The notes beneath the pieces are model-generated. The model ran no database searches, was not told the DNA's origin, and was given only the letters and a program-made list of their open reading frames with translations. Source: Coptis chinensis (taxonomy: Eukaryota; Streptophyta; Magnoliopsida; Ranunculales; Ranunculaceae). Taken from it: DNA of 64,000 nucleotides. Location of the stretch: positions 34,904,501 through 34,968,500 of the forward strand of contig CM027383.1 in assembly GCA_015680905.1 (NCBI GenBank), read 5' to 3'. Made by a program: the position numbers and the translations under genes. Shown piece by piece: positions 18,601 through 57,086 of the stretch (positions are counted from its first letter, which is position 1; each line of letters begins with the position of its first letter).

Positions 18601-18709
18601 AGGGGGATTCAAAATCCCCCACTAGGTCTGCAAGAACGATGCACGACTTAGGGCCATCGTTTAGGGCTTTATAAAAATCAGAGAGAGGAGTCTCTTGTTC
18701 TTTAGCCAT
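15637..18709 (-). pseudogene. Gag and aspartic protease remnants of the Gypsy element
   Basis: The minus strand opens near 18709 with MAKEQETPLSDFYKALNDG, then shows gag-like sequence, a CCHC zinc knuckle (CNVCCSLEHSDFYC, about 17890-17935), and a retropepsin domain with the DLGAS catalytic motif near 16830 and ILGRPFLATA near 16590. The region after the protease (to 15637) is low in recognisable motifs. These are the usual gag-protease parts of Tat/Athila-type elements. The frame is broken in several places, so this is a fossil. Confidence 0.75.
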
Positions 18710-19906
18710 TGATGCAAGTGTAGTGTGTGAAATTTTAGATAGGCGTGTTGTATTTATTTCTATGAAAAACAAGCCTGATTATACTAGAATTAAAACTCCT
18801 CTGACAGAAGAGGCGAGGAGTGGAAGAAGGAGTACATGAATGCCTCCTTGCTACGCGTTTGAATAGCGTCTTGTATACGCGATCTCAGTGTATTTAACAA
18901 GTTTGAAACACTGAATAACTTGAAGAAATAAAAATTTGAACTAACCTGTGAAAATCGGGCTGTTCATGATGAATTTTCCTTGTAGGGCGCAGGTGCCCTC
19001 TCCTTGGGCGTGGGTCACACTCAGTGTAAGTTCAAGTTACTGTGTTTGGGCGCGGGTCGCGCTCAGGTCAATGTTTGAGTTTTAGGCCTTTTATCGTACT
19101 CCAAAAACTTTGACATTTTTACAATAATTTGCTAAGACTTTTATCAAGTAGCCTGTAAAATTTCAGATCAATCGGAACTATGAAAGTCCCTCTACTGCCC
19201 TGCAAAGTTTGCAAAACAGTTTTCGGACACAATACAAAACAACCGAATGGTTAACCCATCAAAACAAAGCTAAAAATTTCCAAATTTTTACTGGAGACTC
19301 CTGACAGATCCTACTTGTTCCTGTAAAAATTTGAGAGCAATTGGAGTTCTACAACCTCTCCTTATCGGCTGGTGTTCCAGATATTAAGTGTTTGCAACAC
19401 TGTAGAAACACACTGGAAACACTCCACTATTTAGGAGGTCAAAACAAATCAAAAACTCGTCAAAGTTTTACTGCAAACTCCTGACTTAGGATAGATACTC
19501 CTGTAAAAATTATAGAATTTTTAGAACTCCCTAAGTAACCTTACTCGTCTGTTTTTCAAGAACATACGGTGTGAAAACTGAAATGCAGCACTATAAAGAT
19601 CGTATTTTTTTTTCACAAGGTAAACCAAATTTGAAAAATCTGAAAATATTCCAGTAAATCAACAACACATTAAATATTATGTCTGAAAATATTTAGAATT
19701 TTCGAAAATTTAGAAATACCTTCACCGCAGTGTTTTTCTCTATGAATCCATGAGCCCTATGCCTAAAACAAAGAAACAGTTCGAAAATTCAAGAAATAAG
19801 AATGAAAAATTAAAAGGGTGGGTGGGTAGAGAATGGGGGATTGCCCCTTGGATTCAAGCAATTGAATTCTTGTCTTGAACGAGATTAAGATGGTAGCGGC
19901 GCCATT

Positions 19907-21061
19907 TGATAAAATGTAAATTTATGTATAAATTAACTATCTATGCGTAAACACAAATAATCAATTTACGTAAATACGTGTTTATATCAATATTCCTACT
20001 CTCAATAATGAAGTAATATAAGAGAGTCAGGATTCGTTCCACTCTTAAACCCTCAAGACTTAATAGAATTCAACTACTCGACACAAAGAACAATGGTAAA
20101 CAATGAGAGTAGTGTGTAATTTCTAATATTATTATACTATCATTTCTATATGAATTTGAATACAACATAATCTAAAGATTCTAACTTTATGAAATTTAAC
20201 TAAACAATAATCCAACCCAACATCAATAACTACAAAATGACTAACAACCAAGAAATGAAATTAGATCTAAGCAATAGATAAATGACAAAATCGAATTTGA
20301 TCAATAATAAACTACTTTATTTATCTAATGAAGCAATAACAATATTTTAATACTTTAAATTAAAACAAGGGAAATGAAAACTAATTAAAATGAAGATTTA
20401 ATTCTAGATCTAAAAATTATTCTAACCCTAAACTCCATTAATATTAGCTTCCTAACCTAACTACTTTTTCTACCTAACCTAATTGCCCTTAACAAAGAGT
20501 CAAACTTTTGTTTTTATACTTTCAGATCTAAAAATCATGCATGGGCTTGGAGCCATGTTTTGGGCCGGGAAATCGGGCCCAAAACCCAATTTCTTTAGTC
20601 CAAAATGGGCTCTTCAGCTGTAGTTGGCTTCGACAGATGTTTTGTCCACTTTTGCTCCTCTGATTGGGTCAAGGCTTGGACCATTGGAAAGCTCTTTCCG
20701 AGCCAATCGTTTTGACATAAGATACTCCCAATTTCGAGGTCTGAGTCCAAAGATACGGCCTTCGAAAGTTCTGCTGACTTTGTGTGCTGTTTCTGCCCGC
20801 GTTGACTTTGACTTTTCAGCTTTTGACCGGGCTTTACAAAGGCTTTGTCTCTTTGAATCTTGGCCTTTATCACAGAACTTCTTAGCAACCAACCCTTGCT
20901 CCTTTATCTCGCCAAAGTGGCACATTTCTGTACATAATTGACTTTACTGCCTGAAATACATAAAAACACGTAATCAGTATTAACTCTTATTTATTACTCA
21001 CATAATTGGTCTAAAAGTATGATTGTTAAGGGGTTAAAACTACAGTTTTGAGCTCTTATCA
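19907..21061 (-). repeat. 5' LTR of the 11.6-21.1 kb Gypsy element
   Basis: Bounded by TGATAAAATG at 19907 and CTTATCA at 21061, directly followed (minus strand) by the TGGCGCC primer-binding site. Confidence 0.85.
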
Positions 21062-24707: not shown

Positions 24708-25236
24708 AGGACCTGCACTGACACTTGTGCATACCATTTTATACCAAAGGTGGTACGCATTAACGTTTGTACATACCTAAAGTGGCATGATTTAATATAT
24801 TTGTCAGTTCATCAAAAAAAAATAGTATGCACCGACACTTGTGCATACCGTGGTACTATTGTCTTTTTCAAATAAGAGTCAACTATTGTCCTTGACAACG
24901 TTTTTGAAATATGGGTGGTTTTTTGGGTTCATTATTTCGAATTTTTTTCTTTATCAATTTTGTCCCCTCAAACAAAATTGGTGCTTAATTAGTTGGGGAA
25001 GATGAACTCAAGGTTTAGGGCATAATTATCAATGAGTGGTGTGGGCCGTTGGATGTGAGTAATTTGATATTGACACGTGTTATGTACATTCTCTAGTTTA
25101 AATTGGATATTGCAAAACTAATATTTCATTTTGATAATTTTTCAACGAAAAGGGTATTCAAGACATTTCAATTGCCCTGGCCATGAGATAACGGTCAAAA
25201 TGTGTTGACTGAGACAGTGAGTGAGTCTTTGGGGGG

Positions 25237-26768
25237 TGATAAGTGCTCAAAAAGTGCAATTCAACCTTCGATTATGCCTCTTGTTTAGCCATCTTAGTGG
25301 ACTAATAGTGTTTGTAAGTTATGTTTTAAGATTCTATAGGTGAAAAAGAGAGTTTTGTAGAATACTAGAGAAAAATGGGTAAAATAGAGCAATTCGGAGC
25401 ATTAAGGATCACATGGGAAGCCCGAGAACAATCATGGAGAAGGCCAAGGAATTGAAGCTATTAAAGATGCGACTTGGACCTATTTTAAAGCCTATTTGGA
25501 AGCCCAAGGCCAAAGGATTCGTTGCTTGGACCAAAGCCCACAAAAGAGGATAAAAGGATAGAGCAGAAGAGACAAAATAGGCTTACGCGTCTGGGATGCA
25601 TGGATCGAGCGTCCAGACGCATTGATCAAGTCTGGGACACATGAATAGTGCATCCAGATGCATGAATCGACATTGTAGCTAATTCCTTCTCAGTTTTAAA
25701 GACGAAGTTGGACTCTGGAAGAAGTCTATTTGTATTAGGAAACAAATGACGGTTTGGAATGCTTCTAGAGCTCGTTGTAACCCCTATAAATAGAGGACAT
25801 AAGTGCCTCATGTAATTTGCCAATTCACTTATAATCTTGTCTCCAAAACTTGAGGCAGAGAGAGATTAATAATAAAAGATCGGTTTTAACTAGCTGAGTC
25901 TTAATAAATTAGTCTTTCTAGTCTTATGTTCTTCGACTCTTCTTCTTCTCGTTCTTCGTGTTCTTCCTTCTATATGGAAGGCAAATCTTCTCCTTCAAGG
26001 GAGGAGATGAAGCCGGTGCTTAAGGTTTAATGATTCTTCTGGTTCATGGTGTTCTTCAACCAGGTTAGTTCTTTATGTTTTTAGTTATTAGTTTCATTGC
26101 CCAGACTAGGGGATGGAATTATAGATTAAGGTTTTTATTTATTGCAATTGAATATAATGCTAGAATAGAGTTTTATTTATTGTAATTGAATATTATACTA
26201 TTATTCTCTACTTTTCTTCTAGTTGTGTAGTGTTTTAGAGTAAGGGAAGTATTCCTTGTTTTGCCTTAGAGGGTGATTCATTGAATAGTTGCCCAAGCTC
26301 ACATAAAAGGAAAGAAGATACTAGTAACATGATCATAGGAATAACCTAAAGTTGAGTTAATTGTTTAACGATGTTTCACCCAAAGAGGGCATCGGCACTC
26401 GCTCGATTGCCCGATTGTAGTCTACTTGGAGAACAACATGAAGCAAAAGGTCATTGAATCAAAAGCATTGGTGGATTTGAATCTCTTGAATCTATCTCTC
26501 TTATATTCTCTCCCCATTTCCAATTCTTAGCTTTAGTATAAGTTTACTTAGTTTAGTTTAGTTTAGCATTAGAATCTACTATATCTATAATCATAGTTTT
26601 TAATCCCTCAAACCCCCTTTCCAGTCCTGTCCTTCATATAAACATACACTTAAAAGTGGAACGATACCCTACTCATCCTTTACTTATTGAGGGATAATTA
26701 GGTTTTGATACACTTCTATTTGTTCAACGACAATCATCCATCTACACACACAAAAGGAGTGAGTGTCA
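25237..26768 (+). repeat. 5' LTR of the 25.2-34.0 kb Gypsy element
   Basis: Starts TGATAAGTGCTC and ends GAGTGTCA. A TATA-like CCTATAAATAGAGG lies near 25783, as expected of an LTR promoter. Confidence 0.85.
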
Positions 26769-27311
26769 ACTGGCGCCGCTGCCGGTTTAAGTTGTTTATG
26801 TTTAATGTTTTCTTTCAAGATTAGAACTTTGGATTTTGAGGTAATTTTAGCCGTATCATCCATCCTTTTAAGAAAGAAAGAAGCTTGAAGGACATCTTGA
26901 AGACAAGATCTACCATCCAGGTTAGTCGAATCTTCATTCTTTTTATTTCATTCTTAGTATAGTTGTATAATAGTTTAGTTTTATTGCTTTCTAGTATAAT
27001 TGCATTTAGGATCTTTTCAACAATTGAAGTTGTAAGCCAACACAGCGAAACATCAAACTCTAGTGTTTCTTGTCTGAATCTTGACAAACGGACTATCGTC
27101 TGTGAGCCGTGGTACTTAAGCAATCCAAGTGATTCACCATAATCCTAGAAGAGACAGCTTTAGACAACGGGCGAGATACTAGCTGCAAAGCCCAACCAAG
27201 TTGAAGAAAAGTAGTTTTGCATATTAGTATAATTTAGAATAGTTGTATATTAGTTTAATTGCATTCAAGCATAGTAGGATAGTTTTTCGTCATTTTTGCA
27301 TTTTCTAGTGT

Positions 27312-28454
27312 ATGCCCCGTCGTCCATATCATCGTCCGGTAAGAACACAACAGTGGACAAGGTTTAACAACCAACTCACAAGAATACTAGACGAGATTAA
27401 AACAATGGCCGCAAGCAATGATGGAGGTGTTATGAACCTGAATAATCCTAAAGCTATCCCACCCATGCAAGCACAATAGAGGAAGAAGCTGAGCGATTTC
27501 TATTCGCCAATCATTGGAGACCCACCCAAAGATATTATTTTTTTCTAGAGAGGCGCGAAGCTAACCAGGTTTGAACTTAGAGCATCGGTAATCTCTATGT
27601 TTCCAAAGTTCAATGGTTTAGATAATGTTCAGCCTTATGTTCACATGAACAAATTTCTATCAGTCCTCAAAACATTCAAGAACCGTAATATCGGGGATGA
27701 AAGTATCAAGTTAATTCTTTTCCACTCTCACTCGAAGGTAGAGCATCCGAATGGTTAACCTTAACCGCATACCGATCAATTCAATAAACAACCGGAGAAG
27801 TTGAGAACAAAGTTTATGAACAAGTTCTACCCACCCCGTAGAGGCGGATGCCATGCAGAAGCCATCAACAATTTCAAAGGGAAGGTGGCTGAAGAATATC
27901 ATCAAAGCTGAGAGAAATTCAATAATCTGCTAGTCTCATGTCCACATCATGGTTATGATAAGAGCACACTTGCTCATTTTTTCTATCGAGGACTCTCGAT
28001 GATGAACAAGAAGATGATACAATCAATGCACAAAGGCAAGTTTACATCGATGGATGGAGAGGAAGCTTACAACTATCTCGAGAATTTAGCTGAAGAAACA
28101 CAACAATGGACTACTAGCAACGAAGATGTCGCTAGCATGGAGGGGGAGCCAAAGTAATTTGGCTACCAAGCACATGAACAAGCAGATCAAGAACTGAAGT
28201 CTACATTGGCCAACCTGGCCACCAGCATTGAAGCTCTAAGTAAGAAATTCAACCAGTTCTCCATGAATCCCACCAAGATCAACAAGTCTCAAGCTAAATC
28301 TCTCCTAGTCATGCAAGCTAGCCAATACTGCGAAGTCTGTTCGGACACTTCTCATGCAACTCTAGAATGTCCTAGTTACTATCAACATGCATCAGTTGGA
28401 GAGTACAATATTAACTCATTTCAGAGGCCCAACCAAGGTAGTAATAACTTTTAA
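27312..28454 (+). pseudogene. Gag region of the second Gypsy element
   Basis: Begins MPRRPYHRPVRTQQW at 27312, continues through a retrotransposon-gag domain, and contains a CCHC knuckle CEVCSDTSHATLEC near 28330. Gag forms the virus-like particle in such elements. The region is broken in a few places. Confidence 0.7.
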
Positions 28455-28535
28455 GGCAATTATTGGAGACAGAACGTTGGACCCCCAGGTTTTCAAGATC
28501 AAAGTTATATTCCACAGACAAGTCAAGCTTCACAG

Positions 28536-29918
28536 TTGGTTCCTCAACAACAATTATACTCTCAGCAGAATTCCAATACAAGTGGAGAGTTAGTGCCTGA
28601 TCCTAGGAGAAATTATGCCGCACCTGTCAACCTGGAGAATGCTATTACTTTGCTATCACAGAAAAATCAGAAGTTTGAAAGTGTTCTAGAGATTCTTGCA
28701 CAGTCTCAGCTCAATCTCCAACAATCTCAGGCAAGTCACTGTTCTAGAATGGAGTCTCTAGAGGCTAAGGTTGACCAACTCACTACTATTTTGTCTATAA
28801 AGAGACAAGCCACTCAACCTAGCTTATTGGAACCAATATTGAGGAGTGAAGATGTATGCCACATTGGGACAACTTCTAGTACTGATCACCTCCATGATCA
28901 TGTCAGCTCAGTTACTACTTTCAGATCAGGATTGAAGATAGACAACAAGGTTGACTCATCTGCTCATGATGACATTGCTACAGAGCAATCAGTCAAGATT
29001 TCAAATGAAGTTCAAAAGGAAGTGGGAGAAATCCTTTCAACTCCTATTTATCAAGATAACCAAGACAAGATATGCAAAAATGCCAAAGAGGAAGAAGAGC
29101 AGACACATGTTGATGTATTTGTACCGAAGGAACCTTTTCCTATGTTTTTTGCTCAAAGCAAAAAAGACAAGCAATTTTTAGAGATGAAGGAGGCATTTGA
29201 GAAAGATAACATCAATATCCCCTTTCTCAAAGCGATCAAGCAGTTGCCATCATATGCCAAATTCTTGAAGGATCCATGCAACATAAAAGAAAGTACTCAT
29301 GTTCCAAAGCGAGCATTTCTAGTTTGGACAAACAACATCCGTTATCCATCGCCAAGCTCGGTCAAGCTCAAAGATCCGGGAAGTCCTACAATATCATGCA
29401 AGATAGGAGAAAAATTCACAGGTAATGCTCTTTTAGACCTTGGTGCTAGTGTTAATCTCTTGCCATATCATGTGTACCAAGCGTTGGGCCTGGAGAACCT
29501 AAAGCCTACAAAAGTCAAATTGAAGTTGGCTGACCGTTCTACAAAGATTCCCAGAGGCATAGTTCAGGATGTTCTTGTTCAAGTAGCCGATTTCTACTAT
29601 CCAGTGGATTTCATTGTGATAGACACCCAGGAGACCTTTGATAAAATTCCAATCATTCTAGGCCGACCTTTCCTCGCTACCGCAAAAGCTTTGATAAATT
29701 GTCACAATGGTGAAATGAAGATCAACTTTGGTAAGATGTCCATGGACATAAATATCTTTCACCTGTTGCATAAGGATTGTGATGACGCTGAAGGTGAAGA
29801 GGTGTACTTCCTTGATAGCATGATACAAGAATCCTTCCATTCGAAGATACAATTGAGAGTGCTCAATCTACAGAAAACTGTGATGAACCTGAGAACCCCA
29901 CCACGGAGGCCCTGCTAG
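28536..29918 (+). CDS. Gypsy aspartic protease region, open frame
   Basis: A 460-residue frame holds a glutamine-rich linker, a coiled-coil-prone stretch, then a retropepsin fold with DLGASVNLLP (about residues 302-311; active-site aspartate), ADFYYPVDFIVID and IIGRPF-like ILGRPFLATA (about residues 376-385). It would cleave gag in the particle. A retroelement protease frame this long without any following reverse transcriptase is typical of gag-protease-only derivatives. It belongs to a fossil element; activity is unknown. Confidence 0.75.
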   Translation: MVPQQQLYSQQNSNTSGELVPDPRRNYAAPVNLENAITLLSQKNQKFESVLEILAQSQLNLQQSQASHCSRMESLEAKVDQLTTILSIKRQATQPSLLEPILRSEDVCHIGTTSSTDHLHDHVSSVTTFRSGLKIDNKVDSSAHDDIATEQSVKISNEVQKEVGEILSTPIYQDNQDKICKNAKEEEEQTHVDVFVPKEPFPMFFAQSKKDKQFLEMKEAFEKDNINIPFLKAIKQLPSYAKFLKDPCNIKESTHVPKRAFLVWTNNIRYPSPSSVKLKDPGSPTISCKIGEKFTGNALLDLGASVNLLPYHVYQALGLENLKPTKVKLKLADRSTKIPRGIVQDVLVQVADFYYPVDFIVIDTQETFDKIPIILGRPFLATAKALINCHNGEMKINFGKMSMDINIFHLLHKDCDDAEGEEVYFLDSMIQESFHSKIQLRVLNLQKTVMNLRTPPRRPC

Positions 29919-29920
29919 CC

Positions 29921-30523
29921 ATGTTCTTGGAATCTCGGCAGAAAATTCAGAATTTAAGTGAGCAGAATGGAAAATTGACAGAGAGAGTATCATATCTTGA
30001 TAAGATGAACTCTACATTTAAGGATGAACAACAGACTTCTACCCAGAAAAATCAGTTGCTAGAGAATCAGCTTAAAGAAGTTTTGGAAAAACAACAAAAT
30101 CTAGAAACTAAAATGAGTCTTCTGAAGCAGAAAGTGAACCATATTGATAAGAAGAATTGCACTGCTGAAGCTTCTTCTACACCATCATTGTCTGAACGAG
30201 AGAAGTATGTGAATCAGTCTACCGCCCACCTTAAGCGCAGTCAGCCAGTCATCCATTATCATTACTGTGGTGGTAAATGGCACATCAGATACTATTATCC
30301 TGTTAGAAAGAAAGATTTTTGTCAATCTTCTACACAGAGGAACCACAAGGCCTATCACACAATCATCAGACCTGAAATAGTTCAAGGTAGAGAAGCAACT
30401 TCACCAGCAATCTTTCCAGCATATCAAGGAGTATTTTTGACAACCCACAAGGTGAGACCTCCTCGTCCTCCAAACATTCGTCAGATTTGGGTAAGAAAAT
30501 CTGATCTCCTCACTCCAAATTGA
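29921..30523 (+). CDS. Extra coiled-coil frame behind the protease
   Basis: A 200-residue frame begins two bases after the protease stop. Residues 5-95 are heptad-rich (KNQLLENQLKEVLEKQQNL), predicting a long coiled coil. About residues 105-130 hold HYHYCGGKWHIRYYYP, which resembles a degenerate 'CHYCGxxGHIRPYC' zinc knuckle. The tail PPRPPNIRQIWVRKSDL resembles linker peptides in plant retroelements. Its role is unknown; it may derive from a second gag-like source. The short spacing suggests it was translated with, or after, the protease frame. Confidence 0.5.
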   Translation: MFLESRQKIQNLSEQNGKLTERVSYLDKMNSTFKDEQQTSTQKNQLLENQLKEVLEKQQNLETKMSLLKQKVNHIDKKNCTAEASSTPSLSEREKYVNQSTAHLKRSQPVIHYHYCGGKWHIRYYYPVRKKDFCQSSTQRNHKAYHTIIRPEIVQGREATSPAIFPAYQGVFLTTHKVRPPRPPNIRQIWVRKSDLLTPN

Positions 30524-31504
30524 TAATACATTACATCTTGGGGATCTAACGTAAAAAGACCTAAAAATTCGGCATCAATGGTAATATCCTACCTTTTTCT
30601 CATCCATTTCATTTACTTCTTTATACATTGAGGTCAATGCATGCATAATTAAGGGGAGGGTGTACTTGAGAAATGAATTTTGAAAATTAGTTTTCAAAAA
30701 CTAAAATATTTTTTTTTCTATATCAGCAGCATGAGAAAAATGAATTTTAATGATGAGTCTGGGATATAGATTATATACTGCTTAGTGTTGAGTTTGATAG
30801 ATAGTTGATATTATTGATTTCATTACCGCTTAGACTATTTATTATGCTCGGACATAGTTTTTGTTAATAGAATTCTTTATCAAGGCACCACCATAGTACT
30901 TGGTCAGTTTTGTATACTTTTGCTAGAAGAGAGATTTAAACCCTTAGTAAACTGGAAGTAGAATTTTTAGACTTAACCCGTAAGACTTGAGCTTTATACC
31001 CATTCTTTGGAGAGTTCTTACAAAAAATCCGAATCTTAGTGACTCAACATCTTTCAGTTCTTTATGTCGTTGTAATATAGTCTCATTATTTGTTGATTTG
31101 GTTAATCACGAAGTGACATCAACTGGGGAGATAGCCATTAGGTCTTGTAGTCTATTCAAAACAGAGTATCATACTGATAAGTCAAGTAGTGAACCCATTC
31201 AGCCTTTATCCCACCTAGTAGGACCATCATATTAAACCCTTTTGAGCCTTACAATAAGTCATTTTCTTCCAAAACCCTTTATCCTTTACCCAACTCCAGA
31301 CAAGGAGTACAGCCAAAATCTTTATCAACCATACCCATATGTTTCTGAGAATATGAGGGGCACAAGGAGGAAGAAAGACCACAAAAGGAAGATTACAAGG
31401 AAATGTCAGAGAGATACAATGAAGACCATCATTATGTTCAAAGTGAAAGAAGCTAGTGGAAAACAAGCATATCTAGTACTAATCAAGGATATACCACTAC
31501 TCTT

Positions 31505-31505
<1 letters not shown>

Positions 31506-31542
<37 letters not shown>
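31506..31542. repeat. A homopolymer of about 37 bp
   Basis: Uninterrupted A-run within the interior of the second Gypsy element, possibly the tail of a retroposed segment. No flanking duplication was checked. Confidence 0.8.
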
Positions 31543-31546
<4 letters not shown>

Positions 31547-32428
31547 ATAGAATGGATGGAAAAGCTAAGACAAAGGAAGAATTTTCTCTGCAATACAGAA
31601 TTTGAAGAAATCTTCCAAAGAAAGAAGCAAAACCCTTAGTGTTTTTCAGAAACAACCTTATAATCCTTTTTACCTTTTCTTCATAAACCAATACCCAAGC
31701 CAAGTTACAACCCATGACTTATCACTACAATATGGTACGAAGTCTAGAATAGGTGAGAGGATGCTAAAGTGAAGGACCCGACACTTCATATGTGATTGAC
31801 ATTCTTTCCATGAGACTACTTTCATTCAGAAGTCTGTTTTTCAAGGTAGTATGTGGGATGTTCGTATGCATTATTCTTTTCCCCACATACATGAGGTAAA
31901 ATAATATACCATCTTCTGAGAAATTCTTTGTTGAGAGTATGACCGGTGAGGATTGAAAGTCGAGATTATCTATCTAAAGGTAAACTAGGGATTCCGTTTC
32001 TTGGATAGGAGAGTATAAGAGATTGACTAAGTACAAACATAAGCCTTGATTGAGAATTTTGTCAATTTTTACTATCTCCCATCATAATCTATGAGTCTTT
32101 GCAGCAATGCAGTTAGCAATGAATACCGTTTGTTGGAGTAAGCACTAAGTGGGTAAGGAATTTCTCTCTCTGAAAAATACTATCATTCTTGAACATGCTA
32201 TTGATTGATTTTGTGGGTATATCACCTGAAAACCCTCACGAGACTATAACTCGTCTTTTTTGGGGAACTTAAAGGTTTAAAGCCTTGTTACATATGGTAA
32301 ATGCAATCGCGATGCCTGCGAAAGTGAGTTAGGATTTTATTTTTGTTATTAGGATGTTATTTTGATCACTTATCTATTTTTTTTTATCTTATTTGCTAAT
32401 AGACTAGCAAAAGGCTAGTTGGGAGTTG

Positions 32429-33960
32429 TGATAAGTGCTCAAAAAGTGCAATTCAACCCTCGATTATGCCTCTTGTTTAGTCATCTTAGTGGACTAATAG
32501 TGTTTGTAGGTTATGTTTTAAGATTCTACAGGTGAAAAAAAGAGTTTTGTAGAATATTAGAGAAAAATGGGTAAAATAGAGCAATTCGGAGCATTAAGGA
32601 TCACATGGGAAGCCCGAGAACAATCATGGAGAAGGCCAAGGAATTGAAGCTATTAAAGATGCGACTTGGACCTATTTTAAAGCCTATTTGGAAGCCCTAG
32701 GCCAAAGGATTCGTTGCTTGGACCAAATCCCACAAAAGAGGATAAAAAGATAGAGCAGAAGAGACAAAATAGGCTTACACGTCTGGGACGCATGGATCGA
32801 GCGTCCAGACACATTAATCAAGTCTGGGATGCATGAATAGTGCATCCAGATGCATGAATCGACACTATAGCCAATTCCTTCTCAGTTTTAAAGACAAAGT
32901 TGGACTCTGGAAGAAGTCTATTTGTATTAGGAAACAAATGACGGTTTGGAATGCTTCTAGAGCTTATTGTAACCCCTATAAATAGAGGACCTAAGTGCCT
33001 CATGTAATTTGCCAATTCACTTATAATCTTGTCTCCAAAACTTGAGGCAGAGAGAGATTAATAATAAAAGATCGGTTTTAACTAGTTGAGTCTTAATAAA
33101 TTAGTCTTTCTAGTCTTATGTTCTTCGACTCTTTTTCTTCTCGTTCTTCGTGTTCTTCCTTCTATATGGAAGGCTAATCTTCTCCTTCAAGGGAGGAGAT
33201 GAAGCCGGTGCTTAAGGTTTAATGATTCTTCTGGTTCATGGTGTTCTTCAATCAGGTTAGTTCTTTATGTTTTTAGTTATTAGTTCTATTGCCCAGACCA
33301 GGGGATGGAAGTATAGATTAAGGTTTTTATTTATTGCAATTGAATATAATGCTAGAATAGAGTTTTATTTATTGTAATTGAATATTATACTATTATTCTC
33401 TACTTTTCTTCTAGTTGTGTAGTGTTTTAGAGTAAGGGAAGTATTCCTTGTGTTTGCCTTAGAGGGTGATTCATTGAATAGCTGCCCAAGCTCACATAAA
33501 AGGAAAGAAGATACTAGTAACATGATCATAGGAACAACCTGAAGTAGAGTTAATTGTTTAACGATGTTTCACCCAAAGAGGGCATCGGCACTCACTCGAT
33601 TGCCCGATTGTAATCTACTTGGAGAACAACATGAAGCAAAAGATCATTAAATCAAAAGCATTGGTGGATTTGAATCTCTTGAATCTATCTCTCTTATATT
33701 CTCTCCCTATTTCCAATTCTTAGCTTTAGTATAAGTTTACTTAGTTTAGTTTAGTTTAGCATTAGAATCTACTATATCTATAATCATAGTTTTTAATCCC
33801 TCAAACCCCCTTTCCAGTCATGTCCTTCATATAAACATACACTTAAAAGTGGAACGATACCCTACTCATCCTTTACTTATTGAGGGATAATTAGGTTTTG
33901 ATACGTTTCTATTTGTTCAATGACAATCATCCATCTACACACACAAAAGGAGTAAGTGTC
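32429..33960 (+). repeat. 3' LTR of the 25.2-34.0 kb Gypsy element
   Basis: Same length and start as the 5' LTR. The terminal ~50 bp is repeated once more at 33966-34014. Confidence 0.85.
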
Positions 33961-34760: not shown

Positions 34761-35994
34761 TGATCGAGTGCAAATGATTGGTTAATGCCAATATCGTTGT
34801 AAATGGCACTTAAAATCAATAATTTCATTTCATACTTAATATTTAATAAATATTATAGTGCTAAGTAGGGTCGTATCCCCAGAGACTACTTTAATTTCTA
34901 CTCTATTTAAAATGACTTATCAACTAGAACAATAAATTAATATTTCTTTGTAGTAAAATTTCTAATTAATGAAAACAAACTATAAAAATAATTGAGACTT
35001 AAACAATTATAACTAAAGACAAGGATTTCAAGGTTTCATCTATATAATTTATGCACAATTTTCTCGATTTAATTTATTTTATATAACTCAAATTAAACTA
35101 TGGCTAGATGCATTTAATTCGGAAAATCTATATTTAGAAATAAATATTAATGTAAAATGTAAACTTTAATTCTTCACCTTTTTAACATTCATTAAATTTA
35201 ATTTAACTATTGCATGGCAAAATAAATACCACTACTAAAAAAAAGACTTGTAATGACGGCTAAAAGCTGTCATGAAACAGGTTTAATGACATTTTTACGT
35301 TAAAGAAGCAACCGTCATTATAGAGCCCGTCATAAAAGTTTACAAAAACCGTCATTAAACTTATGATGGTTTTCGTAAAGCCGTTATGCACTTCAAAGAT
35401 TTTATGTCAAAAATATGGCTAAAACCGTCATAATAGACAAAAATAATATTGACTTTTACATGGTACCCGTCATTAATTTTAGTACAACCGTCATGATTTT
35501 CAGTAAAAACTTTCAAGAACCCTATTAATTTGTGATGGTTTTGGAAAAACCGTCATAAAAATATACATTTTCAGGAAAAAAAAATATTTCAAAAAAAATT
35601 ATACCCATAAAATTGCATAAATCATTTAGCATGTATACAATCAAACTCCACTGCAAAGTGCAAACAACATAACATAATCACACACAAACTAGCCATTTCT
35701 TGATCTAGTTTATAATCCATTCACAAAACATAGTCCATTACATTTAACCATTTCAAAAATTTACATACATTTAACCAAAAATACCCACAAAATGTCTCTA
35801 ACAAGAACGGTTTGCATGATTTGACTTTCTTTCATCCATCCTTGTTCAAACTTAACCTGCAAAAAATTGAAGTTGAAAAAAATAAGAAGAGCCTATCATT
35901 CATAGAAAACGACGAAAGGAAAAAAACATGACTTCTGACGAGACGAAATAAGTGATAACACTAACTCAAAAGGATTACAGAAAAAAGTGTACTT

Positions 35995-36150
35995 GCAAAC
36001 ATTCAAAATAGCTGAGAAGGTGACAACATTAGGTTTTATATTAAGTTCAGGCATTTTGTGGACAAATCCCCAGATCCACAATAGCTCCAGAGATTCTCCT
36101 TTTGCTTCTTCCTTCAAAGGATGCGCTTTTTCAGAGACTAACTGGTCAAA
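35995..36150 (-). pseudogene. Captured pentatricopeptide-repeat fragment
   Basis: The minus strand reads KMPELNIKPNVVTFSAILNVC, a classic PPR half-repeat; such helical repeats bind RNA in organelles. From memory, the phrase IKPNVVTFSAILN is close to a C-terminal repeat of GUN1-type proteins, but many PPR proteins share it. It is followed by a GTAC donor-like site. Only about 50 residues are present, so it is a gene fragment carried by the CACTA element. Confidence 0.6.
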
Positions 36151-36913
36151 CACATAACCCTGTCGCCATTGCTCTCCTTTCCTTCATTAGCAACTTGGAG
36201 AGCCATACAAACAGATGATTCATTCATTTTCATTCATTTAATAGTGAATTATCTTAACGGTACCTACCATAGTATTTAACTCTTGAACCATTAAACACAA
36301 ATAGAGAATCAAATTAACCTTGAAAACTACGGGAAAGTCAAAATTTTATAGCAAAACTAACTCAAAACTTGAATAAGAATGTCATACAAATAAAAATTTA
36401 CAGCAAGATAATAAATAAAATTGAGTACTTAAGAACTATATAACTAAAATTGAGTGGCTTAAGCACCTTACGAAACCCACTTTCACAACAAGATACATAA
36501 ACAACAGTACACAACACACTGTTTCCTATTAATGATTCTAATCTAGATATAAACTCACACATAATAATAAAGAGAATCAGAATACAAACACAGCCGCCAC
36601 CTTGCCCAGTGATTGACATATTCACTATTGTCATGACTAAGCCAACTGAGTTTGCCCTTACCCATTTATTACACCCTCAAAGTCTCAAACCCTAATAATT
36701 TGTAACACATCAATCAAACTATTGCTCACATTCGACAAACATTTTATTATATAATAACCACATTCCAAAAATTATAATGAATTTGAAATCCCCATTCAAG
36801 CAAAGATGTAGTTCATATCCAAAAACTATTAAGTTAACCAAAATGTACACAAATAAACGACCAACATCTACATAAAACAGTAGAACAGGAAAGAAATGAC
36901 ATTTACCACTGAC

Positions 36914-37145
36914 CTCTAGAAACAAATAACCAGCTTGAAGTTTGGCCATGTTGGCATTTCGAGGAACACCTGTCTTGAAAGCTTTCCAACACAAACAACA
37001 CCCAAAAAGCCAAACTTGAATATTTTAACACAAAATCTCGTATAGGGAAATAAAAGGTGTGTGAAACTGTACCGGCCGGTCTTCTGGATTGGCGACACAT
37101 TTGCAGATAGAACTGCTTGGTGAACGAATTGAAACTTTTGAAGCT
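36914..37145 (-). pseudogene. Captured exons of LL-diaminopimelate aminotransferase
   Basis: Minus-strand block 37145-37073 reads ASKVSIRSPSSSICKCVANP then EDRP. Block 36981-36914 reads AFKTGVPRNANMAKLQ then AGYLFLE. A GT...AG intron joins them in frame (donor G|GTACAG, acceptor GAAAG|CT), and the second block ends at a GAG|GTCAGT donor. The sequence parallels the plastid transit/N-terminal region of plant DapL/AGD2 (CKCVA...; ...NMSKLQAGYLFPE), the lysine-pathway enzyme that makes LL-diaminopimelate. The catalytic domain is absent. Capture by the CACTA with intron retained points to DNA-level acquisition. Confidence 0.75.
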
Positions 37146-38851
37146 CTGAAACAACAGAAGAAAACATATAAGAGATAAAATTAGTTAGGGTTTGGAGAAT
37201 GGCGGATGATGAAAAATGGTTTGGAGAATGGCGGATGGATGGGAGATGAAACTGTTAGGGCGGCGCACCAAGAATGACGTGAATTCGGTTTGAAATTTAA
37301 AGAGGATAAGGGAGAGGTTGGGTGTTCGACATTTCGAAATTTCATTGGTTTTCTTACGATATATATTCGTCATTTTGCATAAATGAACGAGGAGTTGCCA
37401 CTTTTTCAGTTTTTGACGCTTCAGTTAGCCAAGTGCCAATATTTACTTTTGAGTCTGGACGGTTCACTTATTCTGGACGGTTTTTTTTTTTTTTTTTTTT
37501 AAGTCTTGACGGTTCAATTGAGGTCAACAACTTGTGCTAAAAATTGTGAAAGGTGTTGACCGGTTTATTATTATTTTAACTTGACTAGTTTAGGAAATCT
37601 GTCACAAAATTATTATATTTTCTTGACGCTTGTATTATACACGATATAATGTTACAACAGCCGTCATAAAATCATCATATTTTCTTGACGCTTGTGTTAT
37701 ATATGACATAATGTTACAACAGCCGTCATAAAACCATCATATTTTCTTGACGTTTGTGTTATACACGACATAATGTTGCAACAGCCGTCATAATTTTTTT
37801 TCCAAAATACCTATCTTGACGGTTTTCAATAAAGCCGTCAATATATATGAAAAACATGCGTCATAATATGTCTTTTTTTTAGTAGTGTACACACTATCAA
37901 AAGAGTAATCCTAAGTATAATATGTCAAACTATGTACACATAATGAAATATATTAATTAAGTATTTAAAACTAAAGGTGTACTCCCGTAATTGGAACTAA
38001 AATTATTTGACATGCAAAACAATAATGAATGAAGCTAAGAAAAATTGTGCAATCCTTATATTGACTACGTACATCTTGAAATCCTAGAAAAGAAATTAAG
38101 TTAAAAGACATGTAGAATAAAAAAAAGTTATATAAATTTTATTTATAATGAAATAACTTACGTAAACTTCTTCTTCTACAATGAACTACTTTATTAATCT
38201 AAAACTTTGATCTCTACTAATAAATCTAAGAAAATGAATCTAAGAATGAACTAAAGAATTCATTGCCTCATGCACTCCTCTCCAAATTAAAGACCTTTAT
38301 TTATATGCTTACAATGTGATCACAATAAGAAAATTTCCCTCTTAAAACAAATTGAAATGGTAACAAAATATATACTTAGATACCAAGCAAAATATTCTCT
38401 TGCATAAAATATTGTAGAAACTTTCTAATCCCGACTTGTCCTTGATCTTCAATTTGAATTGTTTCCTCCATTAAATATTTTCTCCAATAATATCATGGTG
38501 TTTATGGAATGGGGAATATTGAGAATTAATAATAATGGAAAGGAAAGAAAATATTTAGGTGGGGAAGATTTTTGCATGAAAATGGAAGGAAAAATATGTA
38601 TGGTTTGCGGCTAAGATTTGCATGATTTGGTGGTAATGATTGATAGGAAACAAGGAAAGTTAACTTGGGAAATAATATAAAGCTAGATATGATTTTGTGA
38701 ATAGGAATTGGTGTCAATTAAAGATACCAAGAATATTTTCAAACAATATCTGATCCAATATTCTTGATCACAACCGCACTAAGTCACTTAATAATTTGGG
38801 TCGTCCATTCTAATGTTTGGACTTGGGCCTACAATTCCAAATAAACTTAAT

Positions 38852-42989: not shown

Positions 42990-45900
42990 CCGTCCGGTTC
43001 TTAAGCAGACTATCCGCTTACGGACATGAGAGAGAAACGAGCCAGATCAGTAATTTTTTTATGCTTTGTAGGTCCCTCCAAGTCAAACACAAATAAGGAA
43101 AAAAGATAAAAAGAAAAAAAAAATAACGGAACAACAAAATCTAGTTAATAAAAAATGGGATTTACAATCTTTTCCAACACACTTCAACAAGTCATCCCCA
43201 ACTTTTTTGCCCAAACGGTTTTTCCCAAAAAAAAAATTTTGCTTTCATTTTGAACGAGCACTTGTCTCCCTTTGGTGCAATCTCTACTGGCAGACTTAAT
43301 ATCTCAAATGGAAAAGGAAGAATTCGAATTACAGAGTGAAAGTATTGGTGGAGAAAATATTGAGGTTTATATTCCTCAAGTATCATGTAGTGTCAAGCCG
43401 AAAAAAAGGTCAAGTTTTTGAGACACTAGTTGATTCTAAATGTTTTTACAATACTTACGTGAAAGAAGCTGGATTTAGTGTTCGGAGTTGGTTGGAGAGG
43501 AAGAAAGATGACGAGATCATAAGAAAGGAGTACGTATGTTACAAACAAGGAAAATGTTCACTAATAGTAGACATTTACACGAAAAGGCATCGAGGCAACT
43601 CAAAAGAAGATTGTAGAGCAAAAATCGCACTACGAAAGTTAGCGTCTGGTGCTTTCATGGTTAGTGTTTTCGTTGAAGGGCATAGCCACTCATTGGCAAC
43701 CACGAAGAGTTCACCTTCTACGATCTCATCGTGGAGTTTCTGATGCCCAAAGATGCTTAAGTCAACAGCTTAGCATGGTAAATATTCTGCCACATCAACA
43801 GTTCAGTCTTCTTGGAGTGCAGTCAGGGGGAACTGAGCATATTAGTTTTATAGAAAGAGACTTAAATAACCTTCGTAGGGATGAGCGTAATGAGATGAAG
43901 GGGCAAGATGGAGACATGTTTCACGAGTACTTAAAACTTGAACAAGGTAAAAATCCTTCATTCACTTTTAAGATGGAGTAAGATGATGAAAAAAGAATTA
44001 CACATTGCTTTTGGGCCGACGCGGCGTCTAGACGAGCTTACAAGTTTTATGGTGATGTAGTCATCTTTGACACTACGTACAACACCAATTGATACGGATT
44101 AATTCTGGCACCTTTATTTGGAGTTAACAATCAATGTATACATATCAATGTATGAAATCCGGTCAGGATGGGTGCCCGCGCACATGTGAACCATATTTTC
44201 TCAGCTGGTATGTCAAGTAGCCAACGAGCAGAAAGTGCCCACGCATTCTTCAAGAGGTATGTTAACAAAGAGAATTCATTGGTAAATTTTATGATTCAAT
44301 ATGGTAGGGGACTTGTGCACCAGCGTAATAAAGAGTTGATGATTGATCACAAAGATATGATTGAGAAACATAAAATGAAAATGTTGCACCATTTCTTGGT
44401 ACACATGGTTGGAGTTTATACATTTGAGTTGTTTTTTATATTTCAAGAAGAGTTGTGTATGAGCTTCAACTACAAATTTGAGCTTATTGGTGAAAATGAC
44501 GACTGTCATCTTTATAAAGTTCAAAATAAAATGGTGGAGAAGTCTAGAGTTCGGGAAATTCTTTATCAGAAAAGTTTAGATTTGGCTTCATGCATTTGCA
44601 AAAAAATTGAGAGTTTGGGGATCCCTTGTAGACATATTTTGGCTTATTTGAATAAGATGCATGACTTTAATAAATTGTCGGATCAGTATATTTTAAAGCG
44701 ATGGTGTAAAACTGCAAAATCAAGGATAGTTATAGATGATGGTGGAATGGAGATCACAGATGATAAATCATATCTAATGAAGCGGAGTGAATTGATTCAA
44801 ATGTATGCACTTGTAGTTAGCAGGGCCCTTGGAAGTAAAGAAGCAACAAAAGTGTATACCGATGCTTTGGAGAGTGCACTTGTAGAAATTAATAAGTTGG
44901 TGATTGGTTGTGGTACGAGTAGTCAAACGAGTAGTCAAATGTTTGGTTGTGGTACAAGTGTAGGAGGTTCGAGAAAAAAGGGTTCTAATATGGAAAATAG
45001 TTTTTATGAACCGAATCATGTGAGGCCAAAAGGATGTGGAAAAAGGCTTAAGGGATTAAAGGAAAAAGCACTCAGAAAGGTGCAAAAATATCATGGCAGA
45101 AAATATAGTGGATGTGGTCAGGTTGGACAACATGATAAAAGAATTTGTCCAAAACTTATAAATCTGTAAGAAATTCTCTTTTATCATTCCATTTTTATAT
45201 TCCTGATAAAAAATTCAAATATTCATTGTTATGTTAATTTTGTTGCAGTGAACAACCTTTCATGCACGATGACGACACAACTCAAAATTGTAGCACAGAT
45301 GACGAAAGTTATTCTTCTTTAGGTAGAATCTCTCTCTCTCTCTCTCTCTCATTTCACATCTGTTATTTTTCTATTTGCAGGTAATGGCAATCGACTTGGC
45401 TATGGCTCTACATCATATAATGCTAATACAAAATATGAATTAGCATCTCAATGGAGCACTCCAAGTGTTGGTGGCAGCGTGGCTGTTGGTAGTCGTGGCT
45501 ATGGTGGTTATAGTGGAATTGATGGCTCTTATGCCTGCCCTAGGAGCTATGGTGTTGTAGGAGAGCAAGATGTTAGTACTCGTAATAGTAACAGTATTGG
45601 TGAGGGTGGAGAGCAACATGGGTCAAGTGTTGGTCACATGGGAAACGACTATGATGCTAACTATGGCTATAGAAATACATATAATTAGCTGTTTAGTCCA
45701 TAATCTCACGCTCGATATGCGTTTTGGACAAGATTATAGCAGAGTTATGATGGGTTAAATTGCTTTTGGATGCCATTTAATTTTTTTGGTAGTTTATATA
45801 ATTCTATCAATTTTAAATTTGGGGTTGATTTTGAGCTTTTGAATTAATTCTAACTACATTTGGATTCTACGGTTGAGTTCTCAACTTTTACATTTTAACC

Positions 45901-48757: not shown

Positions 48758-49205
<448 letters not shown>

Positions 49206-50271
49206 CTAACACAGCTAAGTTAAGAGATAATTGAGCATGCCATGACGTTGTTAGGATCTCATATAGGCCCTTATGACCCTGGCCAGTAAATGGACCTTTA
49301 TGAGCCTCTAAAATATCTTTCAGGCCATGACCAATGCCCCAATTGGTCCTATACATGCGACCGGCTATCAGAAAAATAATTGCAATAGCTAAATGATGGT
49401 GTGCAACATCGGTCAACCATAGACCCACTGTTACTGGATCTAATCCTCCACGAAAAGTAAGAAATTCCGCATATTTTGACCAATTCAAGGTGAAAAATGG
49501 GGTTGCTCCCTCGGCAAAACTGAGATAAAGTTGAGCCAAAAGATCCCGATTCAAGATAAATTCATGAGGAAGTGGGATCTCTTTAGGATCTACTCCAAAT
49601 ACGTCTAGAAATTGGTTAATCGGTAAAGATACATGTACTTGGTGCCCCGCCCAAGAAAGAGGCCCAAGTCCTAGCAACCCCGCTAAGTGGTGATTCAATA
49701 TAGATTCTACATCTTGGAACCAAGCCAATTTTGGAGCAGCTTTTGTGATAATGGAACCAACCGGCAAAAGCATTAATGCAAAAACCAATGCACCAATTGC
49801 GATGCGATAGAGCTGTAATTCACTAGTTATTCTATATGCTCACCAAATCTGAAAAAGTCGGAGGTTATTTGTATTCCTCGAAACCCACCCACATCACCAT
49901 TCAATATTTCTTGGCCCACTATTGGCCAAACCACCGGAACCTTGGGTCCAATGTGAGTAGGATCACTTAGCCATGCTTCATAATTGGAAAACCGGCACGC
50001 GGGAAATACATGCCACTCACCAAAAGAAATATAATGGAGAGTTGACCGAAATGGGCACTAAATACTTTTCGAGAAATCTCTTCCAAGTCACTGGTATGAC
50101 TATCGAAATCGTGAGCATCAACATGTAGGTTCCAGATCCAAGTGGTAGTATCCGGGCCTTAGCTATTGTTCTTGAGAAATGACCTGGTCTGGCCCATTCT
50201 TCGAAAGAAGTTTTTACGGGATCCCTATCCACCAAAATTTTAACTTCTGATTCCGGGGAATGAATAATCAT
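49206..50271 (-). pseudogene. psaA: Plastid psaA N-terminal half in nuclear DNA (NUPT)
   Basis: From the minus-strand ATG at 50271: [20 protein letters not shown], then [16 protein letters not shown]. Later come [37 protein letters not shown] and [13 protein letters not shown]-like [20 protein letters not shown], ending at [14 protein letters not shown]. This covers about residues 1-360 of photosystem I PsaA. The plastid leader (GGAAAGAGGAGGA before the ATG) came along. Several frame breaks and substitutions mark it as a decayed transfer. Confidence 0.9.
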
Positions 50272-53880: not shown

Positions 53881-54279
53881 GAAGAATATTTGCCTTTGTT
53901 ATTTCAATCTGCCAAGACTGAAGGGGTAAGAGTCTGTAAAGCAACATTTTCCATGGAAGATGAGCCGGAGTGTAAATGAACTTAGAAGTGGTGTCATTCT
54001 TCCACCGAAATTACTTAATTCATCGGAATTGATACAGCTTCTCTTAGTGTAAGAAAGCCAGGGGAAGAGTGATAACACATTGAATGACCATACCTTAATA
54101 TTCCGGTGAGTTAGGCTACATATACCGCAAATCACAAAGTTTTAACTCCTTTTTGGGCTTATGATTATTTCTCCTCTAGTCACGGTATGTTGCTTTGATG
54201 CTTTCGATTAATTTTAAAGATTTATATGTTTATAAACCTTACTCAACAACATTTGAGAAATCTGTGTAAAACTTTAAAA
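53881..54279. other. No gene recognised
   Basis: Lies downstream of the interrupted glycosyltransferase and includes its probable 3' untranslated region near 54240-54279 (CAACATTTGAGAAATCTG), which is shared with 59530-59550 of the intact copy. Confidence 0.4.
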
Positions 54280-55176
54280 TTAGTTGCCTTTCTTGTCCTC
54301 ATTGTTAAGTGTTTGTTCGGACTCTCGCTTGCTTGCTTGGTCCTTGATATCTTCGATCAAGAGTGTCAAACTCAAGTGAGAAGATCCACCTTCTTCCATT
54401 GCTTTACTTGCCATCTCTGCCAACTCTCTTGCTCTTTTTCTTCTCCCTTCTCCTTCATTGTTTTCATCCATTAGTCGGTTTACAGCTCTCTGAACCTGTT
54501 GCTTTGTCACCAATATTCCACCCTTGTCCTCCTCTCCCCAGGGAACAGGATCACTGACTTCAACTGGTACCCCTATGCTCAAAACTTGTACAATTAGCTT
54601 CTCATTAATGAATTGGTCTGCAAACATAGGCCAAGTTAGCATCGGAACACCTGCACACACTCCTTCCAAGGTAGAATTCCAACCACAGTGTGTTAAGAAT
54701 CCACCAATGGCTTGGTGTGATAAAATTAGTACTTGTGGTGCCCAACCTTTGATTACTAAACCTCTGTTTTTGGTCCTCTCCTCAAATTTTTCATCAGATA
54801 ACCACTTCTCTAACTCTTTATATCTCTCGCCACTTTTGATCACCCAAATGAATGAACATTGCGATGCTTCTAGGCCTAAGCCAATCTCCATAAACTGCGC
54901 AGGCACAAGACGACATAGGCTACCAAGACAAACATAAACAACGGAGTTAGGATTCCTCGAATCCAGCCACCTCAAGCAATGGTTTGCATTAACTGTGGCC
55001 TTATCACCCCTCTCAACTTTGTCTACAACCTCCTTGTTGTATAGAGAAACAGGACCGACATGCCAAACTTTATTTTTTTTTACCTTCTGGTACTCCTTGA
55101 TATACATAGGCTCTAAATCACAGAAACTATTGATCACTACTCCATATGCAGTTAATTCAGCCTTATTCATCTGGTC

Positions 55177-55794
55177 CAGGGGCGGACCTAGGAGAGGGCT
55201 GGACCAGGCTTCAGCCCGGGGTCCTTTTGCTTACAAAAAAAAAATACTATACTACCTACACTACTTAAAGCCCAACTGTCCAAGGCAAAAAAGTCTGTCC
55301 ACATACTTAGAGCATCTCTAGGTGGTAGTATCACCTCCAAAATTGCTTCCAAAACTCGGAATTTTGCAAAAAACCAATTCTAGGTGGTATCACCTATCTA
55401 GCTGCATTCCTGGATGCAAATTTTCGATTCCAAATGTGGATGCAGCGCTATCACCTAGCTACAGTGGTAATGTCGCGTGGGTTTTTTTTTATAAACTTTT
55501 TCAATTTAGCACGACATTCCCGTGACTGGGAATGTCGCGGTTTTTTTTTTTTAAATTTGGGGTGACATTGGGAGTGTCGCGCGACAGTACCAATAACGAG
55601 CGGGGTGAAATTTGCTGCCACCTAGAGTTGGTCAGATTTTAAGAAAAGTTTTGTCAAATTTCGGAGGCAAATCTGCAGGTGATACTACCACCACCTAGAG
55701 ATTAGAACTTGGGCTTGAAAGATTACACAATGGCATGGCTATAATCTTTTAGGCTTTTAGCCCGGAGAGAGTTGAAGTCCTGGGTCCGCCCCTG
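55177..55794. mobile_element. hAT-type MITE in the glycosyltransferase, perfect 8-bp TSD
   Basis: Left end CAGGGGCGGACCTAGGAGAG; right end (inverse) CTGGGTCCGCCCCTG. ATCTGGTC at 55169-55176 is repeated at 55795-55802. Terminal CAGGGGCGGA plus an 8-bp duplication is the hAT pattern. It is 618 bp, noncoding, and itself holds another MITE. Confidence 0.95.
55314..55702. mobile_element. MITE nested in the hAT MITE
   Basis: ATCTCTAGGTGGTAGTATCA at the left is mirrored at the right (TGATACTACCACCACCTAGA). About 389 bp, noncoding, with further internal inverted blocks (GGAATGTCGCG / CGCGACA near 55440-55590). The duplication is unclear (flanks TTAGAGC and TAGAACT), so no superfamily is given. Confidence 0.8.
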
Positions 55795-56450
55795 ATCTGG
55801 TCATGCACCTCGTAGTAGTTATTTGGGGAATTTTTAAGGTGGCTCATTATACGCGACTTTGTTATCTCAATACGATCAGGCAAGCCTGGAATAACGAAGG
55901 GCTCTGACTCTGAGTTGATATTCTCAATCCCCTTCAAATGAATTATATTATGGGAGCAGAAAAGAGAGAAGCAACACATGCCATGGAAGACCAGTCTTGG
56001 TATACTAAATTTGCGAGCAATCTCTGACGTCCACGGTAAGCAAAAATCAGATATTATACAACTCGGCAGCAGTTCCATCTCTTCAATTGATTGTTCTAGT
56101 TGTTGTTGTAGCATAGCGGTTGCAGTGAATAAGTTCTTGGCCAAGTCTCGCGAAGGGAGAGTATCGAAATTTTCACATCCGTCTGGTAGTCCTACTTCTA
56201 CACCTGGGAAATGGAGTTGGAGAAGTCGAATTGGGAGTTTTGATTGCATTGCACGATCAATGGTAGTCTTGAAACGTAAAAAGTTGAGGGGTGTTGTGAC
56301 TATGGTGACAAGCACGCCACGCTGAGCTATCAGTCTAGCTATGTCTACCATGGGAATCATATGGCCTTGGGCCAAGAAGGGGAATAAAAGGAAGTGAAGC
56401 TGATGGCCTTGTTGAGCCATGATTTTAGTGGTTTGTTGTAATGTTGGATA

Positions 56451-57086
56451 TGTTAGAATAGTTGTATCAACACAGCAACTAGAGTAGAACAGAAGGAACA
56501 GTAGACAAGGACAGAATTAACATGTAATAACCAAGGCGCGGATTAGGCTGTCTTTAAGGAAAGATTTAAGCCCTTCCAATGCGAGAAAAGGCAACAAGCG
56601 ATGCGTCTTCCTCCACGAGGATTCAATGGTTAACAAGAGCGACTTTGCACTAGAAACAGACTACCCTCTAGAACAGCAATATAACTCTCTCTGGCGGCTG
56701 ACAGGAAGAAGAGAAGAAGAAAAAGACTGGTTTGAATTTTCTGTTTCTCTGAGTTGAGTTTCTGATCAAGTCTATACCCTCTATAGACTCACAGCCCTAT
56801 TTATAAAGGTTAGGTTGGTCTCCTAAACAGATAAGGAAGAGATACCAACTCCTAATAAAACACCGAAACTTGTTGCTCAAGAAAAAAGCAAAACAAGTTT
56901 AGGCTATTGGTCAAACCACTACCCACAACAGTAAGCCCAAGTCCAAGCCCGAACCCTACCCGATGTGGTGGATAACCAATGTGAGACTATCTACTATGCA
57001 CTAAAGTGGAGAGAACACATATGGTTCATCTCCTCCACTTTGCACACACTCACAAGTATTTCGAAATACACTTAGAGATTCCAACA
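56451..57086. mobile_element. Copia-type solo LTR in the promoter, perfect TSD
   Basis: Starts TGTTAGAATAG and ends GAGATTCCAACA. GGATA lies at 56446-56450 and at 57087-57091. The 636-bp unit has no coding region. It interrupts sequence that is continuous upstream of the intact glycosyltransferase (61085-61150). A truncated relative is at 6960-7753. Confidence 0.9.

Follow-up and report, generated by a model that had tools for sequence, protein, structure and literature searches.

Several plant CACTA transposons are known to carry pieces of host genes, and these provide the frame for the element considered here. The closest described system is Tgm-Express1, a soybean CACTA element that contains fragments of five host genes and from which chimeric transcripts have been cloned (Zabala and Vodkin 2007, PMC1947982); it is 5.7 kb long and resides in an intron of an expressed gene. 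Captured gene fragments are also present in CACTA elements of Chenopodium, where they are described upstream of transposase domains (PMC8978399). More generally, Pack-CACTA and other Pack-TYPE elements are described as non-autonomous, TIR (terminal inverted repeat)-bounded elements that hold host DNA inside and form families in which some copies have a given cargo and others lack it (Gisby and Catoni 2022, PMC8903248). Here we analyze a CACTA element of 2,658 bp from Coptis chinensis, at positions 35230-37887 of a 64,000-nucleotide stretch of plant nuclear DNA (C7:34904501-34968500; hereafter, the window), in which pieces of a PPR protein gene and of the gene for LL-diaminopimelate aminotransferase (DapL) are enclosed. 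The element is very probably a non-autonomous Pack-CACTA that descends from an ancestral capture of PPR gene DNA, followed, likely at a later time, by the capture of DapL, with subsequent internal deletions, mobilization in trans and a cargo that drifts neutrally.

The Coptis element shares with Tgm-Express1 the CACTA ends and several unrelated host fragments complete with exons, introns and GT/AG sites, and differs from it in being 2.66 kb long, residing in a dispersed repeat and having broken reading frames. It resembles the Chenopodium elements in the host fragments within the TIRs, the subterminal repeats and the 3-bp duplications, and differs in that no transposase was found in a Pfam scan of 12 element peptides, which covered part of the frames. 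Compared to Pack-TYPE elements in general, the case is distinguished by two unrelated cargoes, by copies that keep different exons and by a spread that can be read within one genome, with the proviso that the joints may be later deletions. Neither gene name was found in the papers listed on CACTA capture, which is not proof of absence. The Coptis element is an ordinary Pack-CACTA of a known kind, comparable to Tgm-Express1, for which the sources, relatives and empty sites are all documented. The picture of Pack-TYPE elements is unchanged by it; its value lies in the fact that a single genome provides the ends, the empty sites, both sources, cargo-free copies, copies that retain other portions of the PPR gene, and DapL remains in two relatives, making the element useful for testing models of capture and the survival time of captured pieces.

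The boundaries of the element are exact. Both ends are CACTACTAAAAAAAAGAC, TIRs that begin with CACTA and are perfect over 18 of 18 bp (35230-35247, plus strand, and 37870-37887, minus strand), and TAC is duplicated on both sides (35227-35229 and 37888-37890), so that the complete element proposed in the initial annotation of this DNA stands with its coordinates. The window has 74 CACTA and 70 TAGTG sites, and these form five pairs, 0.3 to 15 kb apart, with perfect TIRs of at least 9 bp; in four of these, the TIR is exactly 9 bp and there is no duplication, and only the pair at 35230-37887 combines 18 bp with a matching duplication. In the host genome (a single assembly of 936 Mb, to which all genome searches refer), an extended pattern consisting of the TIR and its neighbours recovers 588 ends at two or fewer mismatches, and the reversed control recovers none. 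The subterminal motif CCGTCA/TGACGG occurs 14 times in the element, 8 times in the left 400 bp and 6 times in the right 500 bp, and is absent in between; 1000 shuffled versions of the element contain 0.46 such motifs on average and 4 at most, and the remaining 61,342 bases of the window contain 5 in all. The CACTA-type TIRs, the 3-bp duplication and the subterminal repeat arrays in both arms are those of the CACTA (CMC/EnSpm) superfamily, and the interior host-gene DNA with extant source loci, together with related cargo-bearing copies elsewhere, agrees with Pack-CACTA.

The 430 bp on each side of the element belong to a dispersed repeat, with 38 and 42 genome places matching the two flanks, respectively. 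Left and right flank matches on the same contig and strand, with self rows left out, form 32 pairs, and in 28 of these the repeat runs contiguously through the insertion point; among the four exceptions, two show a 2-base overlap, one has 7 bases between the flanks and one has 953. The element, with its TAC duplication, landed inside another dispersed repeat. These empty sites refute the reading of the gene pieces as old local pseudogenes around which CACTA ends are coincidental or nested: nothing speaks in its favour except the age of the pieces, the flanks join without the element, the gene pieces lie inside the TIRs, and element positions 1-1222 are also found at another locus (L022, discussed below), which leaves this reading with practically no credence.

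The origin of the DapL cargo can be traced to a single gene. Window positions 36870-37170 match one other place in the genome, C4:29916746-29917047, and a search with a 37-residue Arabidopsis DapL peptide recovers just the C4 gene (E 3.6e-5) and the element (E 0.016), each via residues 15-37. Once its exons are joined by hand, the C4 gene matches LL-diaminopimelate aminotransferase 2z1z at E 2e-227; judged from these alignments, this intact gene is the source and the block in the element is its exons 2 and 3 with introns. The block, in minus orientation, spans 36856-37185 (element 1627-1956, 79.5% identity to the gene) and includes part of intron 1, exon 2 (37073-37145, 73 bp versus 77 in the gene, with 58 of 69 aligned bases identical and two gap runs), intron 2 (68/91), exon 3 (36914-36981, 68 bp, 63 identical) and the start of intron 3. 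Exon 3 alone matches the residues of the Arabidopsis enzyme at E 1e-7; exon 2 alone gives no protein match among the matches listed and aligns with the host gene. Alignment of both exons to the C4 gene bears out the initial assignment of two DapL exons on the minus strand. A distal piece of intron 3 follows at 36691-36742 on the same strand (element 1462-1513, 87.3%), separated from the block by 113 bp (36743-36855) that are absent from the present gene: the two BLAST pieces overlap at gene positions 9051-9062, and a word of about 12 bp occurs on both sides of the stretch, which would be either an old insertion or a deletion in the DapL gene. A segment of it (36798-36844) is also present in L022; this match, at element 1569-1615, was considered as a scrap of DapL intron and rejected, falling as it does in the stretch that the gene lacks. 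Because introns are present in the captured blocks, DNA was copied rather than mRNA, and a retrocopy is rejected.

The second cargo, at 35968-36228 on the minus strand, aligns at 89.8% to positions 4427-4691 of L021, a PPR gene on C8, so that the search for both source genes in the same genome that was initially proposed succeeded, on C4 and C8, and two unrelated host genes are indeed represented within one CACTA element, both in minus orientation. PPR repeats fill a 647-codon frame of the C8 gene, and a stretch further downstream matches Smr weakly (E 0.00039, below the cut-off); on these two features we take it to be of the GUN1 type. The piece consists of the last 235 bases of exon 1 (35993-36227; 239 in the gene, 215 of 235 identical, one 4-bp gap) together with the first 25 bases of intron 1, and it keeps the donor site and has no native acceptor. 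The PPR block initially described is thus real, with the orientation as described and an existing host gene, although it turns out to be the 3' end of a first exon with a donor and no acceptor of its own. The 4-bp deletion is shared with L022 and not with another related locus, L029. An age of about 10 million years, which would follow from a pN of 0.08 and an assumed rate of about 7e-9, is not relied on here. A scan of viral contigs for relatives of the PPR piece produced 18 pattern matches, none confirmed, and no paper was found by text search with three PPR peptide strings.

Although five inherited splice dinucleotides persist in the cargo (the AG of DapL intron 1, the GT and AG of intron 2, the GT of intron 3 and the GT of PPR intron 1), the reading frames of both pieces are broken. 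Joining 37073 to 36981 shifts the DapL frame and runs into a stop at the end of exon 3, because of an 8-bp deletion and a 4-bp insertion in exon 2; both alternative frames across the joined exons are open and do not encode DapL. Exon 1 of DapL, with the ATG, is absent from the element, and the PPR piece has its 4-bp deletion. Relative to the source genes, the ratio of nonsynonymous to synonymous change (pN/pS) is 0.94 for the PPR piece (15 nonsynonymous and 4 synonymous changes) and 0.90 for DapL exon 3 (3 and 1), giving no sign of coding constraint, as under unconstrained drift, the two estimates being based on 19 and 4 changes, respectively. The three amino acid changes in exon 3 arose in the element, given that the gene agrees with the Arabidopsis enzyme at these positions.

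These features bear directly on the possibility that the element is a living product of exon shuffling, with the DapL exons and the PPR block spliced into one translated chimeric mRNA. The persistence of the splice dinucleotides agrees with such a product, and fragments in Tgm-Express1 are reported to be spliced in this manner (PMC1947982). Against this, the spliced DapL exons are out of frame, end in a stop and lack the start codon, the PPR piece combines the 4-bp deletion with the missing native acceptor, and pN/pS is about 0.9, so that a translated chimera appears highly improbable and a working chimeric gene is, on the sequence evidence, unlikely. The earlier suggestion that a chimeric transcript could be made is accordingly weakened, the element not being supported as a good candidate for a working chimera, and two of its components hold in part: GT and AG dinucleotides are retained where they had been placed, except that the PPR piece has no native acceptor, and the two "spliceable" DapL exons have their sites and are the second and third exons, mutually out of frame. 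The most likely role of the cargo would be none, that is, neutral drift. We take both DapL and the GUN1-type gene to encode plastid-directed proteins. It is conceivable, as a long shot, that a CACTA family with PPR pieces in one orientation might give rise to small RNAs, or to chimeric RNAs of a non-coding kind, by which the PPR source gene and, via this element, DapL would be tuned.

The history of the cargo is best seen in the relatives of the element. Its left arm (35230-35967, plus strand) matches at least 35 places, drawn from the best 40 of 1093 candidates, from element position 1-10 to 651-740 at 80-83% identity. Of 11 loci around such matches (L038-L048), seven contain full elements with matching 3-bp duplications, six of 3.4-3.6 kb (L038, L039, L040, L045, L047 and L048) and one of 4.9 kb (L042); no clean pair of ends with a duplication was seen in L041, L043, L044 and L046. 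The right arm (37186-37887, plus strand), which has three repeats spaced 62 bp apart, is likewise a family sequence: element 1941-2658 matches L041 at 80%, and L042 is matched by 2005-2564 at 83% and by 2372-2658 at 91%. The large relative (L042 2207-7068; C9, 42.17 Mb) has a TGT duplication and open frames with armadillo-repeat matches below the cut-off, perhaps another captured gene.

Many of these relatives carry another part of the same PPR gene. Exon 2 of the gene matches 33 other places among the matches listed, and 16 of these fall within a left arm from the list of 35, 152-222 bp inside it (13 of the 16 at 152-163 bp), all 16 in one orientation relative to the arm (e.g., C2:112244296, C8:32393127 and C9:18682433); put differently, 16 of the 35 listed arms carry PPR exon 2 at a nearly constant distance. 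Across the 14 family loci compared, namely, the window element, L022 (C7, 78.41 Mb), L029 (C2, 13.99 Mb) and the 11 fetched loci, PPR-gene pieces are present in 7. L044 includes gene positions 4125-4402, 4476-4523 and 6228-6797, and L045, L046 and L048 have exon-2 pieces that end at gene 6790-6797, all four loci with exon-2 pieces 87-90% identical to the gene; L022, which shares element 1-1222, and L029 have the PPR 5' joint in common with the element. No PPR-gene piece was found in L038-L043 and L047. An initial count of six relatives free of both genes was rejected, given the PPR exon 2 in L045 and L048 (and also in L044 and L046).

DapL pieces are rarer, being present in 3 of the 14 loci, all of which also have the end of PPR exon 1. 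In L029, DapL exon 1 with the start codon adjoins the PPR joint (55 columns, 80%, E 2e-7), by which the candidacy of this locus as a PPR-only copy was rejected. The DapL remains in L022 consist of two 20-bp matches, one to exon 2 and one to intron 3 (E 0.001 each), and L022 also matches the element's own DapL exon 2 and intron 1 over 44 bp. At E 1e-4, no DapL match was obtained in the other 11 loci, and weak matches in L038 and L046 (E 0.001-0.005) were treated as chance. Because PPR pieces occur in 7 of the 14 loci and DapL pieces in 3, it is likely that PPR was captured before DapL.

We infer the following scenario. A family ancestor would have taken up, as DNA, a stretch of the GUN1-type PPR gene that began in or before the 3' part of exon 1 and extended into exon 2 or beyond, in a single capture; the family then would have spread, with separate copies keeping separate parts of the PPR gene. 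The lineage of the present element would also have taken up, probably at a later time, a 5' part of the DapL gene, and internal deletions would have left the element with the end of PPR exon 1 and DapL exons 2 and 3. Finally, a cut-and-paste move, presumably driven by a CACTA transposase acting in trans, would have brought it into the dispersed repeat, with duplication of TAC. The PF02992 transposase domain is present at at least 150 places in the genome (the best 150 of 2715 candidates); one of these, at C1:76282204, with a TIR match at C1:76277617, would be a first candidate for the autonomous partner.

An alternative is that the PPR piece entered the lineage of the element separately, from the gene or from a dispersed partial copy, and not through the family's capture of exon 2. 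Indeed, the exon-1 piece has 13 more partial copies in other parts of the genome, at 80-86% identity (L012-L020 and L023-L028), by eye none beside a listed arm; five of the six dispersed copies compared start within about 10 bp of the gene position at which the element piece starts, and the gene sequence common to the element and L044, the one relative with both exons, amounts to only 48 bp. Yet the identity of the element to the gene (90%) exceeds that to the 13 copies, no element sequence outside the PPR block turns up in the six dispersed loci compared, and the orientation of the piece and its place beside the left arm equal those of the family's exon 2. In a phylogenetic tree of the PPR sequences (14 rows from 13 different places, L018 and L028 being the same), the element, L022 and L029 group together with moderate support (93/87 and 84/82), apart from a dispersed group of 8 rows (7 places) supported at 100/100, with L023, L024 and the gene in between. 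On balance, separate entry seems unlikely, and we retain a single ancestral capture of the PPR gene by the family as the preferred account. As further observations on the dispersed copies, stretches of 1.3 to 5 kb from L026 recur in L025, L027 and L028, and no Pfam match was obtained with two short open frames nearby; six copies of PPR exon 2 cluster within 280 kb at C3:16900908-17178363, not beside a listed arm, five of them being 89-91% identical to the PPR gene over the same 255 bp.

The joints between the arms and the cargo bear on the mechanism of capture. In L044, L045, L046 and L048, the left arm continues past the point where the element switches to PPR intron 1, and because of this continuation the joint at 35967/35968, where no more than 1-2 bases are shared, has the appearance of a deletion joint. 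At the junction of DapL with the right arm, the 6-bp word ATTAGT (37180-37185) occurs both in DapL intron 1 and in the right arm of L041, and at the 5' edge of the PPR piece about 5 bp are shared, with one base different in L029. Apart from copying into a gap, the cargo might have been acquired when two CACTA insertions close to each other fused and enclosed the intervening host DNA, a route proposed for Pack-CACTA and other Pack-TYPE elements (PMC8903248; PMC13317346) and in keeping with the right arm matching L041 and L042 further inward than L038-type copies. There is, however, no second TIR-like site inside the element at two or fewer mismatches, and an exact-pattern search of the 9.5 kb and 19 kb around the two source genes found no CACTACTA end, the PPR locus having 3 subterminal-type words; the short shared words at two joints suit gap repair, although they may be later deletion joints. 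Because relatives hold more of both genes, the shared words do not decide between gap repair and fusion, and fusion has to be regarded as a serious candidate, if slightly the less favoured one.

Several facts weigh against the preferred history as a whole, that is, ancestral PPR capture followed by DapL capture and deletion. L029 has no recognizable left TIR and L022 no right one, and L029, carrying DapL exon 1, gives no order of captures. The 17 of the 33 listed exon-2 places and the 13 partial exon-1 copies that are not beside a listed left arm are PPR copies outside the family of the element, because of which the capture may not have been single. The mobilizing transposase, supposedly of the TNP2 type, is postulated. 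Finally, the stretch between the two captured pieces (36229-36690, minus strand) is a mixture: 36238-36297 is family sequence (element 1009-1068 in L038 and L039, 1031-1068 in L040), 36298-36451 is matched only in the sister copy L022, and for 36452-36690, sequence matching found no source, with one weak match, in L022, at 36486-36537. Capture of a third host gene was considered and rejected: a Pfam search with 10 interior or arm peptides yielded a single weak match (AAT, E 0.032, below the cut-off), and at the acceptor in the left arm, the adjoining peptide had no PDB match and the stretch belongs to the family arm.

Elsewhere in the window, two tandem UDP-glycosyltransferase genes about 90% alike are located at 54245-56516 and 59525-61129. 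The first is broken near 55180-55792 by a stretch of about 0.6 kb that has CAGGGGCGGACC ends and what seems to be an 8-bp duplication, ATCTGGTC, in the manner of hAT elements. A photosystem I PsaA/PsaB open frame on the minus strand at 49105-49839 is probably plastid DNA in the nucleus. Two units resembling long terminal repeat retrotransposons occupy 11557-21061 and 25236-33960. Their direct repeats measure about 1.16 and 1.53 kb, respectively, the two copies being about 97% identical in each unit, and the second unit has an aspartyl protease domain. At 43300-45169, a FAR1 DNA-binding domain followed by a frame with a SWIM zinc finger represents a FAR1-type gene or its remnant.

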